A stretch of 64,000 bases of DNA from Hericium rajendrae (lineage: Eukaryota > Basidiomycota > Agaricomycetes > Russulales > Hericiaceae), in assembly GCA_033439255.1 (NCBI GenBank), contig CM065891.1, positions 868,001 to 932,000 on the forward strand, given 5' to 3'. The notes beneath the pieces are model-generated. The model had not been told where the DNA came from and searched no databases. It saw only the letters and a program-made list of their open reading frames with translations. Position 1 is the stretch's first letter, and each line of letters begins with the position of its first letter. Positions 4,536 to 50,585 of the stretch are shown here, in pieces. A program made the translations under genes and the position numbers.

Positions 4536-7500
4536 TCAGGTGAGGTCTATCATCACCGACACGTCCGACATGTCTACAAGCCCACTCTCTTGCGAGGACG
4601 TAGGCTCAGGGATATATCGCCGACCGCGAAGCGAGTCCCGCTGGGACATCAGCTTCTGCGCCTGAACTGAGTGCACCGGTCTGGGTAGAGGACGGCGAGG
4701 AGGGCCGTCAGAGTCGCTGGATAGGTCGATAATGTCCGGATCCACGGGAGGTCGCGCAGGTATAGTTTGTGGAGGGTTGTGTTGTGAAGTACTAGGCTGC
4801 AGCTGCACAGGTATAGTATGGGTTCGAGAGGCGTGAGTCGTCTTGCTCTTCTTCGCAGGGCTCGCAATCTGTAGTTCAGCAGATCGTGCTGGGGGAACAC
4901 TGGCACTGGCTGTAGAAGCAGAGATGGATTGACGTGGTCGTTTGGTGGTGCTTGTAGACGGAGTGGGTCTAGGTGTCTGAGTGACGCCCATGACCCGACC
5001 GCGAGGTTCGGTGTCATGGCTGGGGCCAGCCCGAGGAGGGTTGTTGTCATCCTCCGAGGCGCTGAAGTCGAACGTGAAATTCGCCCGATCAGTCCGTCGA
5101 CCCGGTGCTCTGCCTCTGACGGAACGCCTGGCGTCACCGGGCACCCGTGGGGCACGAGAACTTGAAGCTGTGGCGACTATAGACCTTTGAGAAGGTCCCG
5201 GAGCGCTGTTGGAATTTCGTGAAGGAACGTCCTCATTGTCCGAGTCGGCAAAGTCGTAGGTGAAATTCGCTCGATCCGTCTGGCGGCCACGATTTTTGCC
5301 TTTGGAATGGGCACGACCAGCGGGCCGCGATCCTGCGGAGTTCCCAGCATTTGTTGACGTAGCAGATCTTTCGGAATTGATGCCCATTATGTTGTCGAAA
5401 AAAGGGTCCCAATCATCCCGAGGAGGCTCCGCAGTGTGATCGGGTAGTGGTAAATGGTCGTAAGTTGCAGTGACGGGCGCCGAGCTGGATGCGATGGTAC
5501 GAGGATGGACAAGACGGGGAGAAGATGATCCCACAGATTGAGGAATAGTTTGGACGGACGGTGGAGCGAAAAGGGTACGAGGTGGCTGAAGAGGCGGTGG
5601 TATAATTGATGGCCTCGTCTGGGGAAGAGGTAGACCGTCCTCCGGTATCAGCATATCTGGATCATCTGGATCAGGGAACCAGAACAAGAAACCCTTTGGT
5701 GTTGTCGGTAAGGAATGCTCGTTTGGCAGCGGGCTCCTTGGAGGGAAGTTTGTGCTTCGTGACAAAGGCGCATCGCGAACCGAGCTCTGAGATGACGTCG
5801 TCCCGCCCACGAGGGGGATTTGGGATGTACTAGATGCCGGCCTAGTGAAATCGTCCAAATCCTCGTCCGAAGGGATTGTGCGGGCCTTGCCTTTTCCCTT
5901 CGCTTTGCGAGACCTTTTGGCTGCCTCATCGGCTTCGTAGTTTTGGACTAGCTCGGGGTGCACTTGCTGAATCATACTTGCAGGCAACCACATTCTCATA
6001 ACGCTCTCCGGGTCAGGTGGCAATTTCGTTGGATCCTTTGGCGCTCTCCTCTGCGACGAAGGTACGAAGTTGACGTCGAAGAGATCGTTGTTCTGGCTAG
6101 AAGATGCGGATGGTTCAGGCCGCTTGCCACGGATCCCCTTTCGGGCTAAGGAGACCAAGAGAGACGGGCACAACTCGATGCGATACTCCAGAATTCGATC
6201 AGTGGAGACGTGTTTGCGAGACCCAACTATCTCCATCTTGAGCGCATTCCTGTCAATGGTCGTCGGGTTTGGAGCCTCAGGCCCTTGATTAACAAATGCT
6301 TCTCGCCGACGATCCGCGCCATTCATGTCGAGACAACGTCTCACAAAAGCTTCTGGAATCCCCACCGCTTCGTCTACGGATGGCCTGAGTGGACCACGGA
6401 TGGATAGATCCCGCGACCCAGCGTTTATCCGCTTTGTCTTCTCCTTTTCATCTGCCTCGAGCGCTGCACGTCGGAGGATATGCATTACCGCTGCTTCCCA
6501 TATGAGATCGCGGAATCGCTTGATGATCGCAGACGCATGGCCCCATTCACCGAAATGAGTCTCGCAAAAAGCAGCTAGACGCGGAAGGCTCATATCACCG
6601 GTATCGCGTATTGCCCCACCACCTTGGCGACCGTTTTGCGCACTGGTTACTGGGGATACGTAGAACTTCAAGATATCCCTTGGTGGAAAGTTCGCCGGCA
6701 GAACGCAAGATGGGCATCGCTTTGGCAAGAAACCACGAGAGTTTGTGCGGAGCTCCAGATGAACGTCTTCCCGCCATTGAGCTAGACGGGTGTCTTCCTG
6801 TGCCCGAAGATCAACTATTTCTAACAAGCGATCTCCGAAACCGCAGCGCGCCAGGCCATAAGCAATACTGGGACCGAATCTTTCAACGCCCTGCACAGCT
6901 AATGTCAGAACGGCAAGAAAGTCCAAGGGAATATAAGGCACATACATCATGATAATCGCCCCCAGACAATAAGGCTATCAACACCAGTCCAGCTCTGGTC
7001 AAATGGACTTGCGGATGAGTTCGCACAGCATCTGCGGTGCACATCATGACATGATTCTTGCTTGCTTTTCCATCAAGATCCATGGCGGGGTTCGCTTTGT
7101 TCCCCGTAAGTTTAAGACCAGGACTGTGGCAAATATAAGCCAGAATATCTCTTTAAAGGGAGATCGGTCTTACTTCTTGATTATGGTCAAAGCGCCAAAA
7201 ACGAGCGCGTCCACGTCGTCAGTCAATACGGCGTCGATGACTCCCGATCTATTCAAGTGCGCGAGTTCTGCTTCAGCTTCACCGGGTGCCTATGATTTGT
7301 TTCACAATGAGCCACAAAGATGCAAGGAGTGGGAAGATTATACCAGTCTCCATTCGATGCCAAAGATCTCCAGAAGTTTCTTCATCCCCGCCATTAGATT
7401 GTGGGATCCAGACTTCCCCATTTTGCTCCCTCTCTTGACCTTTGGACGCTCGTGACCGTCGAACACGAAGAGGAGCGAGAAGGGTAATTCTGCCCAATCC

Positions 7501-42242: not shown

Positions 42243-43937
42243 CTAGGCGACGCCATCGGCCTCTATAGACTTCGCACGGACGGTCGTCTGATGGCCAGCT
42301 GCCTTCGCCGCCAGATCCTCATACCAACGCCTGTCCATCCCCTTCCAATTCTTCAACTCTAGTCTCCGAACCGGTTGTCCCACTTGGTTCCGTGTATCGA
42401 GCATCCGAAGGATGACTTCCTGGCAAGTGACGCACTGATTCGGCCGCAGCCCCTCGAAGTTGAACGAGTCGATGCAGAGCGAGCTGAGCAGAGGCAAGAC
42501 GGTGGGTGGCGCGGCCTGCTGATCCGCTTCAAGGGCGGCGCAGAGCTCCTCTAACACGAAGCCCGAGTCGAAGCCGGTGACCGTCAGTGAAGTGATCGGT
42601 TTAACGAGCACCGGGTCTTCACGGATCCAATTGGTGCCAAGCATCATTATCAGGGCGTCAGCGTCGACTCTGGTGCGGATGTTCATGTTGAGGATGGTAG
42701 ATGCTGCGAGTGGAAGTGCATAAATGGATAGTTGAATCATCCAATCCCGGTCGGACTCCCATCCCTCAGGAACTGGTCCTTCGACGCTACAGACACCCTC
42801 AACAGAAAACTTGATGTGGCAATCATCGATCTCGATGTCCACCCGAGACGAGAGAATGTCCGGGCTCCGACGGGAGGTGTGTTGCGTCAGCGCATCTGAG
42901 AGAAACGTGACATATCCCAGAACAGGATTAGGGGAGTCCATAAAGTATTGTATGCCTAGAAAAATGTCGGGCTGGGTATCCACGATATTTTCGCTCAGCG
43001 TTAAACACCTCCGAAATCCTCCCGCGAGCATCAAAGATCGGAGGTTCGGGAGAGAAACCTGTTCAAAATGATAATTATCGATACTGGGGACATTTCGCAC
43101 TTGAATGACCTCCAGCAGAGGCATTATCCTGAGCAGCAGGAGAAGGTTCTGCAGATTGAGGTCTAGATTCTCCCATTGGCGGAAGTCGGACTGGTCTTCG
43201 GGGCCGAGTCCGGTCTCATCCTTGGTTAGAGTGAGATGCAAGGTGGTGAGATGGTCGCAGAAGATCTGGAGGGCTAGGCTGTCCTTAGGGAAAGTGCAAT
43301 TGGCAATGCGGACGTCACGCAGCAGAGGTGCTTCGCCGTCGAATAGTGTCTCTTCAACCTGTGGCATATCCAGCAGGCCGACCCTGGAATCGTTTGAGTA
43401 AAGCGTCAAGGACCTCAATAGAGGAGCCGGTTCTGTGAGGCTTTCTAACAAGGCCTTGATGGTGTCCGGCTCCGCTGTGACATGGATGTTTTGGATACGG
43501 GACAGGAATCCAGTAACAGGCTGAATAACTCGTAGGTCAAGTGGGGAGTGTGCCACAACTGAGATGGGATGCGAATGGGGTCGGGAAAGCAGCGCCTTGG
43601 TCCAGCTCGGCCCGAGGTTTAAGGGGATGCATGTCCATAGCGCGGGATAATCGATTGCCATGTTTCGCCAGGAGCTGCAGACATGGGTCACGGCGATCCA
43701 TTTCAGCACCGTCTTTTGAATGTACTCAGAATAAGTCGAAAGATTTTCCTCCGAATAGGCGTCGGGAAACACAGAGTCGTCACGGAGATTAGAAAGAATT
43801 AACTCCAGTATCTCCGGAGGGATGGAGGAGGCGCGGCTTTCAGTGAAATGAGACTGATGCTCAAGAGCAGGATGGGAAAGTAACGATTCGGTGTGGGTGT
43901 TTAGGACGATCGTTTCATCGATACTGTAATCCGCCAT
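42243..43937 (-). CDS. F-box protein, second subfamily (copy 3)
   Basis: Single exon, 564 aa from the ATG at 43937 (M-A-D-Y). The frame stays open upstream to 44024, but only a GTG lies there, and the sister gene at 46851 starts at the equivalent Met. The F-box is at about 38-55 (S-I-P-P-E-I-L-E-L-I-L-S-N-L), followed by W-I-A-V-T-H-V-C-S-S-W-R and L-W. Leu-rich segments follow, with the landmarks L-N-L-G-P-S-W-T and H-S-H-P-I-S-V-V-A-H-S. The C terminus has R-R-L-E-L-K-N-W-K-G-M. Very close to copy 4, in tandem on the same strand. Probable SCF adaptor. Confidence 0.87.
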   Translation of the reverse strand: MADYSIDETIVLNTHTESLLSHPALEHQSHFTESRASSIPPEILELILSNLRDDSVFPDAYSEENLSTYSEYIQKTVLKWIAVTHVCSSWRNMAIDYPALWTCIPLNLGPSWTKALLSRPHSHPISVVAHSPLDLRVIQPVTGFLSRIQNIHVTAEPDTIKALLESLTEPAPLLRSLTLYSNDSRVGLLDMPQVEETLFDGEAPLLRDVRIANCTFPKDSLALQIFCDHLTTLHLTLTKDETGLGPEDQSDFRQWENLDLNLQNLLLLLRIMPLLEVIQVRNVPSIDNYHFEQVSLPNLRSLMLAGGFRRCLTLSENIVDTQPDIFLGIQYFMDSPNPVLGYVTFLSDALTQHTSRRSPDILSSRVDIEIDDCHIKFSVEGVCSVEGPVPEGWESDRDWMIQLSIYALPLAASTILNMNIRTRVDADALIMMLGTNWIREDPVLVKPITSLTVTGFDSGFVLEELCAALEADQQAAPPTVLPLLSSLCIDSFNFEGLRPNQCVTCQEVILRMLDTRNQVGQPVRRLELKNWKGMDRRWYEDLAAKAAGHQTTVRAKSIEADGVA

Positions 43938-45060
43938 TGGCTGAGGCAATCGGTCAATGAAAGCTTGAACAGAACGAGAGACGAGAGTACGCACTGCGAC
44001 TCGAGCGCGTTTCGAGATATCCACAGCAATGTGTGATATTCTAGTCTCTCATTGGTAGAATTGAGAGAGATGATGAGTGGATCTCTCGGATCAAGATGGT
44101 AGTTTGCAACTGGACTGACGAACACCGTGGGGACGAGTTGAAGGTCGACTTGTAGTTGTCACTAGCGCGATAGGCGGCTTGCGCCGTACAATATTGCAAT
44201 GAAAATGCACCGTCCCACACGTATAGTAAAGACGAGCTACCATCATTCATCAGACTAGAGGGCTTGAAGTCAAGGACAAACTCACCTGAGATCCTCCGAG
44301 CAAGTTCAAACTTGGCCGCAAAAGGAAAATTTGAGTTCCTCGGCGAATGTCAAGTGCGGTTCTTCAGCTCGGCCTTCGAGATTTCAAGCTGCAGCGCACT
44401 GAGAAGCTGGAGCAGAGACTCTCATCTCCCTTATAAGTACAATAGTGGTCGAAAGAGCCAGGAAGACGTCGTGGGACACGAATGACGGACTCCACCCACT
44501 GACGTGCGCTGCCATCGCAACTCCCCGGTCACGCTTGTTTCGCCGACTCCTGCCATTCAACTCGACTTTGCAGCTGATTTAAGCTTTGCATCATGAACTC
44601 TCATCCCGACTATGCCTCAAAATTCTCCGCTCGACTTACATGTGAAATGAGTCCATGTATTTCGCGACGGACGCTTCACCGCACTAACGATCAAATGATC
44701 TAGATATTCCGTTGACCGCCCAGGACGCACGTCCCGTCTTCAAGATAATCACCATGGCTAACGCCCATTGCTAGCTTCCATGCCGAAACATTGATGTGAC
44801 ATGGACTACCCGCGATTTTCTTTCAAAAAATGCCGTATGACTTCGGCCGATCTCTCTCCTCGGATACGTACGCCTTGCACGCTGGGGCCGACGGTTTTGC
44901 ACGCGCCGTGGCACTTTTCTTCTTCGTCCCAAAGCCATCTCTGCGACCAGCGCAGCAGATCCATCAATCTTGGTCCTCGCTAGCTCCAACGCCCTCGATC
45001 TCCTCTTCGTCCTCACGCGATGATAGGCGCGGTGTTTGTCGGCATATCCTGCACGAGTGT
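43938..45060. other. Spacer between F-box copies 3 and 4
   Basis: 1.1 kb holding the promoter of copy 3 and the 3' flank of copy 4. Open frames are short and unrecognised. Confidence 0.5.
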
Positions 45061-46851
45061 CTAGACGATGCTGTGTCTCGCCGTGAAGTCATCCACGCAG
45101 ACGGTTGTCTGAACGTCAGTTGCTAGAGCTGCTAGTTTCCGATACCAACTCCTGCTCATCCAGTCGCAATTCTTCAACTCGAACCGTTGAATGGGCTTTC
45201 CGGCCTGGCATCGTACATCAAGCATATGGAGGAGCTGTCGCTGAAAACTATAGGATGGAGGCCAACCAAAGCTGAACGATTCTATGCAGAGGGAGCTAAG
45301 CTCGGGTAAAACAATGAACGGCGAAGCATGCTGCTCATCGTCGTCGGATTCTCGATCAGTATCAACTGTTTGAAGGGTGGTGCAGAGCATCCCAAGATCG
45401 AAACCCCAGCCAGTGACTGTCAATGAAGTTATGTTTTGAACGAGTGACGCCTCGTCATAGACGAGATCATTGCAAAGCATTGTTATCAACGCGGCAGCAT
45501 CGACACTACAGCAGATGTTCATCCTCAGGATTGTAGAAGCTGCGAGTGGAAATCTGTGAATAGATTCTTGAATGGCCCAGTCCCGATCAGTTGCACGTTC
45601 AGACGGGAGTCGCGCTTGAATGCTACAGACATTCTCAGCAGAAAGCTTGAAGTAGTCGGCATTGATCTCGATATCAACACGAGACGAGCAAATGCCCGGG
45701 CCAAGGTGGGAAACGTGGTGCCTCAGACACCGTGAGATCTCGGAGATATCCTCCTCAGACCCATCGAAGGGGTCTATATGGCACTGCAGATTTAGAAAAA
45801 TGTTGGGTTGAGTATCGACAATACATTCATTGAGCATGAAACACTTGTGATACCCTCCCACGAGTGTTAAAGACCGAAGATTGTGGAGGGATACGCCCAC
45901 AAGACTATTAGAATAAATGCCAGGAGCACCTCGTACTTGAAGAACCTCCAATAAAGGAGTTTCCTTGAGCAATAGGAGAAGGTGTTCCAGTCTGGGGAGT
46001 AGAAGATACCGGTTGTCCATGTCGTCTTCATTGTCTTCGTCAATGTTGGCGCCATCGCCAATCCCAAAATTCAGACCGAGATGCAAGGTGGCGAGATTAC
46101 GGCCGATGATATGAGGGGTTGTGAGATAAGGGATAGTACAGTTAGCAATACGGACATCATCCAGTAGGGGTGCATAACAGTTGAATATGGCCGAGTCAAT
46201 CTGTGGCAACTCTAACACATCAGTCCCGCTAGCATTGGGATAGAGAGTCATGGATTTCAGTACAGGAGCAGATTCTGTGAGCTTTTCTAACAGCGCGCGA
46301 ATGACCTCTGGCTCCGCTGAGACGTGAATGCTTTGGATACGGGAAAGGTATCCGGGAACAGACTGGATAGTTTGTAAATCAAGCGCGGAGTGTGCCACGA
46401 TTGAGACTGGATGTGAGTGAGATCGTGAGAGAAGCGTGTCGGTCCAGCTCGGGCCTAGATTCAAGGGGATGTAAGTCCATAGCGCGGGGTAGTTGATTGC
46501 GACTTTTCGCCAGGACCTGCAGACATGGGTCACGTTGATCCGTCTCAGCACTATCTGTTCGATAAACTCTGGATAGATTGAAGGATCTTCCTCCGTACTG
46601 TCGTCAACGGACACAGGATCGTCGAGGAGATCAGAGAATATATACTCCAGTAACTCCGGAGGAATACATGAAACGAGTGAGAGAGCGGGGGTATCGGGAC
46701 GGGAATATCTAGCGATGATTCCAGCCGTGAGATCTGCTGTTTCGTCGAACGTCTGCTGACGTTCTGCCTTAGCAGAGACCGATGCGAGAGCAGGGCGTGA
46801 AGGAAAAAGGCTGGTGTGCAGGATAGCAGCCGTCTCGTTGTGATCCTCCAT
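45061..46851 (-). CDS. F-box protein, second subfamily (copy 4)
   Basis: Single exon, 596 aa, ATG start (M-E-D-H-N). The F-box is at about 62-79 (C-I-P-P-E-L-L-E-Y-I-F-S), then V-T-H-V-C-R-S-W-R and L-W. It shares L-N-L-G-P-S-W-T, L-S-R-S-H-S-H-P-V-S and L-S-R-I-Q-S-I-H-V-S-A-E-P with copy 3, so the pair is a tandem duplication. An acidic insert (D-E-D-N-E-D-D-M-D) near the middle is absent from copy 3. Probable SCF substrate receptor. Confidence 0.88.
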   Translation of the reverse strand: MEDHNETAAILHTSLFPSRPALASVSAKAERQQTFDETADLTAGIIARYSRPDTPALSLVSCIPPELLEYIFSDLLDDPVSVDDSTEEDPSIYPEFIEQIVLRRINVTHVCRSWRKVAINYPALWTYIPLNLGPSWTDTLLSRSHSHPVSIVAHSALDLQTIQSVPGYLSRIQSIHVSAEPEVIRALLEKLTESAPVLKSMTLYPNASGTDVLELPQIDSAIFNCYAPLLDDVRIANCTIPYLTTPHIIGRNLATLHLGLNFGIGDGANIDEDNEDDMDNRYLLLPRLEHLLLLLKETPLLEVLQVRGAPGIYSNSLVGVSLHNLRSLTLVGGYHKCFMLNECIVDTQPNIFLNLQCHIDPFDGSEEDISEISRCLRHHVSHLGPGICSSRVDIEINADYFKLSAENVCSIQARLPSERATDRDWAIQESIHRFPLAASTILRMNICCSVDAAALITMLCNDLVYDEASLVQNITSLTVTGWGFDLGMLCTTLQTVDTDRESDDDEQHASPFIVLPELSSLCIESFSFGWPPSYSFQRQLLHMLDVRCQAGKPIQRFELKNCDWMSRSWYRKLAALATDVQTTVCVDDFTARHSIV

Positions 46852-47270: not shown

Positions 47271-47573
47271 CTACTCATCGTACATGGCTGTCTTAGCTAT
47301 ATAAATGTAATGGCCCTCGATTTCCGTAGAGAATTTGTCGTAGTAGTTATTAATCATACCAGGTGCGCAGTGAGAGGAACGGCATGTAAGTAAGGAGACG
47401 ATAGGGGGAGAGTTTTTTGTTTCTGCGAGTATGGTGAGGAAAGCATCTTCAAAGTGGTGTCGGTCGGCGTCATTCGTCGCTGGTGAAGGTAGGTTATAGG
47501 TGCGATCGCCGTGGGTGGTGATGGCCATGTCACATGTTAGCCATTGTATGTGTGTTGTGGTGACGAGGTGCAT
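47271..47573 (-). CDS. Candidate ORF next to the Helitron fragment
   Basis: A 100-codon frame on the minus strand begins just past the stop that ends the Helitron-type frame and is in phase with it. It is polar, with H-F-E-D-A-F-L-T-I-L-A-E-T and S-H-C-A-P-G-M. It does not match the Helitron segment expected here, so it is either a different fragment brought together with it or a diverged continuation behind a stop codon. Confidence 0.3.
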   Translation of the reverse strand: MHLVTTTHIQWLTCDMAITTHGDRTYNLPSPATNDADRHHFEDAFLTILAETKNSPPIVSLLTCRSSHCAPGMINNYYDKFSTEIEGHYIYIAKTAMYDE

Positions 47574-47956
47574 AAGTTGGTTCTAAGATCGTGTTAGTAT
47601 TGCTGATATAAGTTGTAACTCGTGAATGCTCGCGGTCCGAAACGCGTCACGCACGTCCTGAGGGATTGCTTCATGCGCGTAATACTGAAAATTTGCAAGA
47701 GCATCAACAGGCTGCTCTCCTCGATCCAACGACGAAGCACACGATCGACAAACATTGCCATTTGCAATGTCGAACGGATTCTGCAAACCTGGAGAATACA
47801 GAAATGCACGATCATGCATGCGGAAATCATACTCCGTCGGCCATAACTCACACGGGATGTTCTCATTTCGCAATAATCTTAGAGGCATGTCACGAAGCAA
47901 TCTCACAGAAATTTCATGCGCTGGTTTTCCTTGCCCACATACACAGCACGGCTTTA

Positions 47957-48302
47957 TTGCTGTTTGCAGAAGTGTTTGCCACAAGGCGCGACGCGTCAAA
48001 AGTGTCCACACGCGGCTCCTGGCGGCCCCCACAAAGATATTATCGTAGAGCTTCAACCACGTACCATAGACAGAAACGAATGACATGTTCTTGTTCAGAA
48101 AATTCTCCTCGTTTTTCTGATGCTCTTTGCAGTACAGTTAGGCCGCTTTTCGACTTTCGGGTCTTGCAGGCAAAAATGCTCCATATCTCGAGAACGAAAA
48201 TAGCTATGGACAAACGAAGGCCACAGAACATTGATAATAAAATTGTCCTATATGTATGTGAAGTTTCGCGAATTTAGGTGCAGCCGTTGTGTCGCTGCGT
48301 GC
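47957..48302 (+). repeat. Left inverted-repeat arm
   Basis: Matches the reverse complement of 49481-49826 over its full length. The arm is open for about 105 codons in the direction of the longer ORF at 47666-48277, because both copies share the same sequence. Confidence 0.85.
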
Positions 48303-49480
48303 CCGTGTCGCAGGACCAATGGCTGCGAGACGCGGGAATCGTCTCTTGCTCCAGTACACATGCCTCGAGGTCGCAACTGCTCCAAGGATCTCAGCTTCAC
48401 CATCGTTCACATGCTCCCGATGTTCGTCTTATGATGATTTCTAAGCTTATATTGGCCTTAGGAACTGAAATATCCGGGACATCCACTATTACTGGCGGCG
48501 CACTGGAGTGCCGTGGGTTGCATGAGCAACTCAAGGAATGGGCCATCCCCATGCTCTTAGACCCGAACATACTCATGTAAGTTCTGAATCCCATTCAGAG
48601 CTTCATTTGGCTCATGAAGTTGTAGTATCTGCATGGCCTCCTTGAGTGAAGTTGTGACATGTACCTCGATGAAATGCAGAGCGCCTTAGCGAAGAATTGC
48701 GGAGTGCGAGTCGTGTCAGTTTGGAGGTTTTTGAGGTAGTCCAACTATACAGTGAAGAAGGTACGTACATTCCCAGCGTGCTTCGAGTGGATCATGCTAG
48801 TATCATCAAAATAGCAGACGTCGCCAGGCTACGCAGCCTCCTATATATCCCACTCTGCCTCCTGACCCACTTGCCTGTCCTCCACATCCTCATCTTTTAT
48901 TTCAACATCCACCGGTGGGGAACACTGGTATGATGGTGGGCTGACTAATCCCGGCAGCAAACCAGCTGCGCTCGCGTCCGAAGGCTCCAAGATCCATTGA
49001 TGAGCATATCCAGCAGGAGTACGACTAATCGTGCTGTTCACATAAGTGGTCGAGACGGGTGTTGGAGGAGTTTCGGAGGCGTGTGTGGGCGCAACCGCTC
49101 ACAGTGACTCGGCCCTTGTAAGCTCTTGTATCGAGACCCTTGGTAGGCTCAGATGCGGAGGCCATTGTTGATGCATGCACAAGTCGCACCTTTACCTTTT
49201 TCTTCTGCGAGTTGCCGCTTTCTGCATTCCCAGTTTATGTTGATGATCCAGGTGTGACTTCGATCTAATTCTTCGGCGGATGCCCAGGACCTGGCTTCTT
49301 CCGAGTCTTTGGAACAGCAGGAGGGTCATGGTGTTTTCATCGGGTTTTTGGGTATTAGAATGAGCGGGGTGTGTGGGTACTCTTAGGATAAGATGTAGTC
49401 AAAAAACAAATGAGACTCGTAGAGAGTAAAAAGATGGCTGCCTTGGTCCGACCATGTTGGGACAGAGCTGCACGGCATAT

Positions 49481-49826
49481 GCACACAGCGACACAACTGC
49501 TGAACCTAAATTCACAAAACTTCACGTACATGTAGGACAATTTTATTATTGATGTTCTGTGGTCTCCCTTTGTCCATAGCTATTTTCGTTCTCGAGATAT
49601 GGAGCATTTTTGCCTGCAAGACCCGAAAGTCGAAAAGCGGCCTAACCGTACCGCGAAGAGCATCAGAAAAACGAGGAGAATTTTCTGAACAAGAATATGT
49701 CATTCGTTTCTGTCTACGGTACGTGGTTGAAGCTCTACGACAATATCTTTGTGGGGGCCGCCAGAAGCCGCGTGTGGACACTTTTGACGCGTCGCGCCTT
49801 GTGGCAAACACTTCTGCAAACAGCAA
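49481..49826 (-). repeat. Right inverted-repeat arm
   Basis: Partner of 47957-48302. Differences are scattered substitutions, so the arms have aged since they last matched. Confidence 0.85.
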
Positions 49827-50585
49827 TAATAACCACCTACTATCATCGAAATAGTCCTGAAATTCTCTGAGTATCTCATTTCGTCGACTACTATCGCAAG
49901 GATTCGGAAATTCGTCGCCATCGGAAAGAGGAAGACTCTCCTGCGAATGAATTGTCGGACCACTTCCAAAATCGAACCCAAAAGATGCAGTACCCGGCTC
50001 ATAATACCGGAAACGCTCGCGACCTTCGCCGTTGACATCCATTCGCGCCCGTGTCCTGTTGTTATTAGCTTCGTACACTCGAGGAGCAAAGAGATATCTA
50101 GTATGCAAACAATGATCAGTACAAGTATGATCGCGGCACAAGCGCTCCGTTATTTCTCTTTTACAAGTCGCTGTCGAAATCTGAAGACCATGAGCATACG
50201 CAATATCTCTCAACTGCGCTCGAGTTACTTTAGATATGCAAGACAGTAACAACTCCACAGACACCGAAGAGACAAGAATGTGATCTGCACGAACCACGTC
50301 TGATGACCGAGAAACGTTGCAAAAGGAATACCACTGCGAAAGATGACAATCCCGCACAACAGTATGACCGAGAGCATCACCGTCATGTAAATCATGCTCT
50401 GTCCGAACCAAAGAATAGCACAGTTCTGTGGCACATGAAATGACCATTGTCCAACAGACCATATGACCAATTGACCAAATTGCGACCCAACAAGAATGAC
50501 GTACGCGAAAGAGAGAGCATCCACCAACACAGAAATTAACCCCCAAAAAAAGACAGAATTGTATCAGCATGGAAAGCCATAACAC

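Follow-up and report, generated by a model that had tools for sequence, protein, structure and literature searches.

In the portions of the literature on which we draw, elements resembling the one analysed here have been described from two mushrooms. The account of Pleurotus ostreatus TIR_1 presents a Tc1-mariner family with a DDE3 (pfam13358) transposase, terminal inverted repeats (TIRs) of 214 nt and a TA duplication, found as putative autonomous and truncated non-autonomous copies in a genome that also contains Helitrons (PMC4905642). For Marasmius oreades, MarorTcMar-18 is reported as a 3,972-bp mariner and MarorTcMar-21 as its 1,120-bp non-autonomous derivative, a new insertion of which was caught in the laboratory (PMC9674265). 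As to gene content, Tc1 elements are given a single open reading frame and their ciliate relatives several (PMC7325037).

Here, we analysed a window of 64,000 nucleotides from Hericium rajendrae (C14:868001-932000; positions without a contig refer to the window), together with the genome to which it belongs (46.77 Mb, 19 contigs searched). The window holds a 1,870-bp element which, with high probability, is a decayed, non-autonomous member of a long-TIR Tc1/mariner transposon family (DDE_3; DD34E as counted in a relative), which lacks its catalytic part and was pasted into a TTAA of a Helitron-type gene with duplication of the TA, its movement having most likely taken place in trans.

The element and the gene it interrupts

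The element spans exactly positions 47957-49826 (Table 1). Terminal inverted repeats, one of the marks of Tc1/mariner elements, are present as two arms that the earlier note had put at 346 bp and, by eye, at about 93-95% identity; when aligned, they match without gaps at 327 of 346 positions (94.5%). The outermost 61 bases of both arms are identical, transitions account for 16 of the 19 differences, and the likeness ends sharply on the inner side, with 7 matches in the next 28 bases. The dinucleotide indices of the element lie near those of the window (TA/AT 0.69 and 0.61), and we make no claim of RIP-like decay.

Table 1 Coordinates of features in the window and of two coding relatives elsewhere in the genome
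Feature	Position	Strand	Remarks
Downstream part of interrupted Helitron-type gene fragment	47583..47954	-	paralogue likeness stops near 47602
Left copy of duplicated TA	47955..47956	.	target TTAA
Left terminal inverted repeat, 346 bp	47957..48302	+	327/346 identical to right arm
Transposase remnant piece 1, 19 aa	48366..48422	+	47% identical to C1 relative, 24.6 bits
Transposase remnant piece 2, helix-turn-helix region, 49 aa	48433..48579	+	49%, 51.6 bits, 3 stops
Transposase remnant piece 3, 49 aa	48626..48766	+	51%, 53.1 bits, 2 stops
Possible scrap of second, convergent gene	49252..49383	-	tblastn E 0.005, 27% over 44 aa; controls reached 6e-5
Right terminal inverted repeat, 346 bp	49481..49826	-	327/346 identical to left arm
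Right copy of duplicated TA	49827..49828	.	adjoins element end
Upstream part of interrupted Helitron-type gene fragment	49829..50585	-	paralogue and homologue matches
C2 relative, about 4.2 kb	C2: about 4366637-4370830		DDE_3; outermost bases of left arm missing
C6 relative	C6: about 2856588-2860418		DDE_3; one end found

The same note had described TA borders at both ends, which indeed lie directly outside the element, and had proposed that excision together with one TA rejoins the interrupted frame. Removal of the element and one TA does yield an open frame of 391 codons on the minus strand, whose protein reads EFQDYFDDSRWLL up to the junction and KPCCVCGQGKP beyond it; by itself, a restored frame would be expected by chance about 1 time in 3. 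A comparison at the DNA level is offered by a paralogue on the same contig (C14:238961-239913); its stretch C14:238961-239314 is 82% identical to the left flank, and its stretch C14:239318-239913 is 72% identical to the right flank. The joined flanks, CGGCTTTA followed across the junction by ATAACC, align with CGGCCTTTGCAACC in the paralogue without an indel at the junction, so that the net gain in the window is 1,872 bp, or 1,870 + 2. By this length, a TA target-site duplication, a second mark of Tc1/mariner elements, is present. The paralogue, an empty site only 72-82% identical to the window flanks, has itself diverged at the target (TTTGCA where the window has TTAATA) and, because no TA is left there, it supports the length of the insertion and not the letters of its target. 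Two other placements of the ends were considered: a 3-bp target duplication, inspected by eye, fits neither way, and if TTA...TAA were counted into the TIRs, without any duplication, the resulting empty site would fall 4 bp short of the paralogue.

That the element came in as a unit, as had been proposed, is upheld by the 2-bp duplication and also by a protein search with a 158-aa query spanning the junction. This search gave 21 matches, two of them the halves of the window copy, which alone is split into two pieces; the 19 elsewhere, a lower bound as only the best candidates were scored, all run over the junction in one piece with no stop inside (19/19). These unbroken homologues and the indel-free paralogous empty site, together with the presence of the same ends at other places in the genome, speak against the view that the arms arose by a local inverted duplication or an assembly error, with TA flanks there by chance, and leave it a very remote prospect.

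The label 'Helitron-type' given to the interrupted gene is supported by its homologues. Several of the homologues that cross the junction do so within a single open frame of some 2,000 aa in which Helitron_like_N (PF14214) is present as well, examples being found on C11 (2,054 aa) and C13 (2,006 aa). No Pfam match to a Helitron domain was obtained for the window fragment itself, and all 67 PF14214 hits in the genome lie outside the window, the copy there being no more than a 5' portion of such a gene. The joined fragment is identical to the paralogue at 237 of 338 residues, with dN 0.179 and dS 0.965, and these values therefore indicate that the two diverged mostly under constraint. The copy also looks truncated, as likeness to the paralogue ends near 47602 and the stretch beyond matches another place (47362-47452 against C14:211482-211572, 82%).

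Elsewhere in the window, two minus-strand open frames of 593 and 596 aa (42243-44024 and 45061-46851), each with an F-box-like match below cut-off, are possibly a tandem pair, and a minus-strand frame of 804 aa (4536-6950) carries a GEN1 C-terminal domain (Holliday junction resolvase, E 1.4e-25).

Related ends, target site and coding relatives

Further TA-flanked copies with related ends, the existence of which had been put forward as a check, were found when the genome was searched with a degenerate 25-base pattern (end plus TA) built from the first hits, allowing up to 3 mismatches. This returned 27 related ends, 26 of them with TA, whereas a reversed-pattern control returned 0. Fourteen of the 27 ends belong to 7 distinct two-ended insertions; among the other 13, 4 had no complete second end on inspection and 9 were read to 1.5 kb. 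Beside the window element, the two-ended elements are a relative of 4,149 bp (C1:4236182-4240330), one of 1,989 bp (C1:2275399-2277387), one of 792 bp (C15:690266-691057), a pair of 761 bp each (C13:1684218-1684978 and C1:2751394-2752154) and a 391-bp element on C7, counted as one insertion with its C12 copy, which lies in a segmental duplicate. The arms of the window element are about 70% identical to those of other copies (85% for one 57-base end), and a single copy of its 1,178-bp interior turned up in the genome, so that no second jump of the exact 1,870-bp element is seen.

Between the two 761-bp siblings, 100% identity extends over 767 bp, covering the element with T-TA and TA-A, and stops there. 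Because these identical copies sit in unrelated flanks, this sibling family has moved recently and precisely. The arms within each sibling are 95.3% identical to each other; since two identical copies thus have arms differing by about 5%, arm mismatch travels with the element, and TIR-to-TIR mismatch cannot serve as a clock to date an insertion.

All 7 distinct two-ended insertions have the form T-TA...TA-A, with the duplicated TA lying within TTAA, as compared with 77 of 2,404 TAs in the window as background. At the level of single ends, a T stands outside the TA in 24 of the 26 ends that have TA (the one end with CG in place of TA was omitted, and the independent number is below 26, as several ends share flanks), against a window background of 443 of 2,404 TAs that follow a T; the two ends without the outer T are those on C7 and C12, which share one flank. 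The 4,149-bp C1 relative also lies within a Helitron gene, beside a PF14214 hit (C1:4241153-4241779), and once it is removed with one TA, an open frame of 400 codons runs over the junction. A Helitron gene is thus the target in 2 of the 7 distinct two-ended insertions, for which a chance of 0.002 is obtained if Helitrons are assigned a guessed 1% share of the genome; with this share guessed and the count made after the fact, we make no claim of Helitron targeting.

Three relatives with related ends, on C1, C2 and C6, carry DDE_3, and both ends are complete in one of the three, that on C1; for the C6 relative, no inverted arm was found in the stretch read. Minus-strand frames of the C1 relative encode a DDE_3 domain (E 1.3e-19) and a helix-turn-helix region; the latter matches HTH_23 (E 0.0059) below the curated cut-off, and the helix-turn-helix Pfam matches in the relatives generally fall below it too. 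The DD34E/DD34D spacing typical of Tc1/mariner is seen in this C1 relative, in which 34 residues, counted by eye and with a presumed intron omitted, separate the second D (MDNCRIH) from the E (NPIEL).

A transposase remnant and the timing of its decay

The earlier note had called the window element a foldback element that carries no transposase, and in this it was mistaken. Between the arms, at 48366-48766, three pieces of stop-ridden sequence are collinear with the N-terminal transposase frame of the C1 relative, and the longer two score far above the controls (best 28.5 bits with the first query and 20.4 with the second in 200 dinucleotide shuffles; best 24.3 and 22.7 bits in 32 other window stretches). 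Taken by itself, the 19-aa piece does not rise above noise; it counts only through its place in the line. Together, the pieces hold five stops and one frame change, piece 2 being one frame off from piece 1; the 46 bases that separate pieces 2 and 3 probably represent an intron, and a GTAAGT was noted by eye at 48577-48582. A domain search found no match to the DDE_3 catalytic domain within the element.

Foldback elements have long inverted repeats with internal subrepeats and are unrelated to known transposases. The long arms and short non-coding interior would suit a foldback element unrelated to any transposase, but the remnant stands far above the shuffles, and the ends and TTAA context are common to elements that bear DDE_3; nor did a direct-repeat search of 47400-50400 yield a repeat family with both copies within the element (2 two-copy families were found). 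We consider this reading to have a negligible chance of being correct, and the remnant marks the element as a decayed Tc1/mariner transposon that has lost its catalytic part, rather than a foldback element free of transposase. MITEs are short, have no coding sequence and occur in many copies, and the 1,870-bp element, with its coding remnant and an interior found once, does not belong with them; the 761-bp and 391-bp siblings are closer to MITE size.

The lesions in the remnant bear on the order of events. While about 115 remnant codons contain 5 stops and at least 1 frameshift, the interrupted Helitron frame shows 0 lesions in 338 aligned codons and 0 stops in 391 codons. If all lesions had come after the insertion at equal rates, the chance of this distribution would be about 0.0003, a figure that assumes equal rates, treats the 46 bases between pieces 2 and 3 as intronic and relies on a reference relative about 50% identical. 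We infer that most lesions of the remnant predate the insertion. The presence of a transposase remnant, and of a 4,149-bp relative of the same plan, could also be accommodated if the element had arrived longer and self-sufficient and had lost its interior and frames in place afterwards. The Helitron frame should then have decayed alike, yet it has no stop in 391 codons against at least 6 lesions in about 115, and shortened siblings move as such, as the two identical 761-bp copies show; decay in place is, in our judgement, improbable.

Under the favoured reading, the transposase gene of the element would already have been a broken N-terminal remnant before insertion, the transposase of a longer relative would have recognised its ends in trans, and cut-and-paste into a TTAA within the Helitron-type gene would have duplicated the central TA. 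It is because its own transposase gene was apparently such a remnant already that mobilisation of the window element in trans appears likely.

A second gene, and comparison with known elements

In the C1, C6 and C2 relatives, a second, convergent gene is represented by frames that run on the other strand from the transposase. Pieces of this gene match between C1 and C6 at 28% over 109 aa (E 5e-13) and 32% over 163 aa (E 1e-20), and in a third pair at E 0.005; none of the C6 pieces matches the first piece of the C1 gene. The C-terminal domain occurs at three places in the genome, all of them in the C1, C6 and C2 elements. Of four pieces of the gene compared with Pfam, none passed the cut-off (best E 0.011, AASDHPPT_N), and the C-terminal pieces matched no PDB sequence at E up to 1. 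By eye, the C1 copy has an AT-hook-like start.

These relatives may belong to a two-gene Tc1-like lineage, in which a transposase and a convergent second gene each start near one long TIR and the target is a near-fixed TTAA, with damaged beginnings of both genes perhaps surviving in the window element; this is a tentative proposal, to which we give somewhat less than even weight. No fungal precedent for a two-gene Tc1 element was found in the literature searched, which covered few subscription journals.

The window thus offers a clean example of one mobile element inside another, with an empty-site paralogue, although of a fairly ordinary kind. Similar mushroom elements have been published, and the window element adds a member to a kind already known. 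With TIR_1, as described, its family shares a mushroom genome, a DDE3 transposase, long TIRs, TA duplication and shortened copies, whereas the complete coding relative here measures 4,149 bp and has a second gene, against 1.6 kb for TIR_1, the two being compared by description only (PMC4905642). Like MarorTcMar-18 and -21, the Hericium elements combine a mariner element of about 4 kb with a shortened non-autonomous form; whereas MarorTcMar-21 is reported to have no protein domains, a broken N-terminal part survives in the window element, again in a comparison by description only (PMC9674265). Membership of the Tc1/mariner superfamily, DD34E and TIRs of several hundred bases are shared by the family described here and Minos, of the Tc1 family, as that element is presented (PMC7325037). 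What is unusual is the second, convergent gene in the three coding relatives, which, should it prove general, would be a departure from the single open reading frame that the same account describes for Tc1 elements (PMC7325037).
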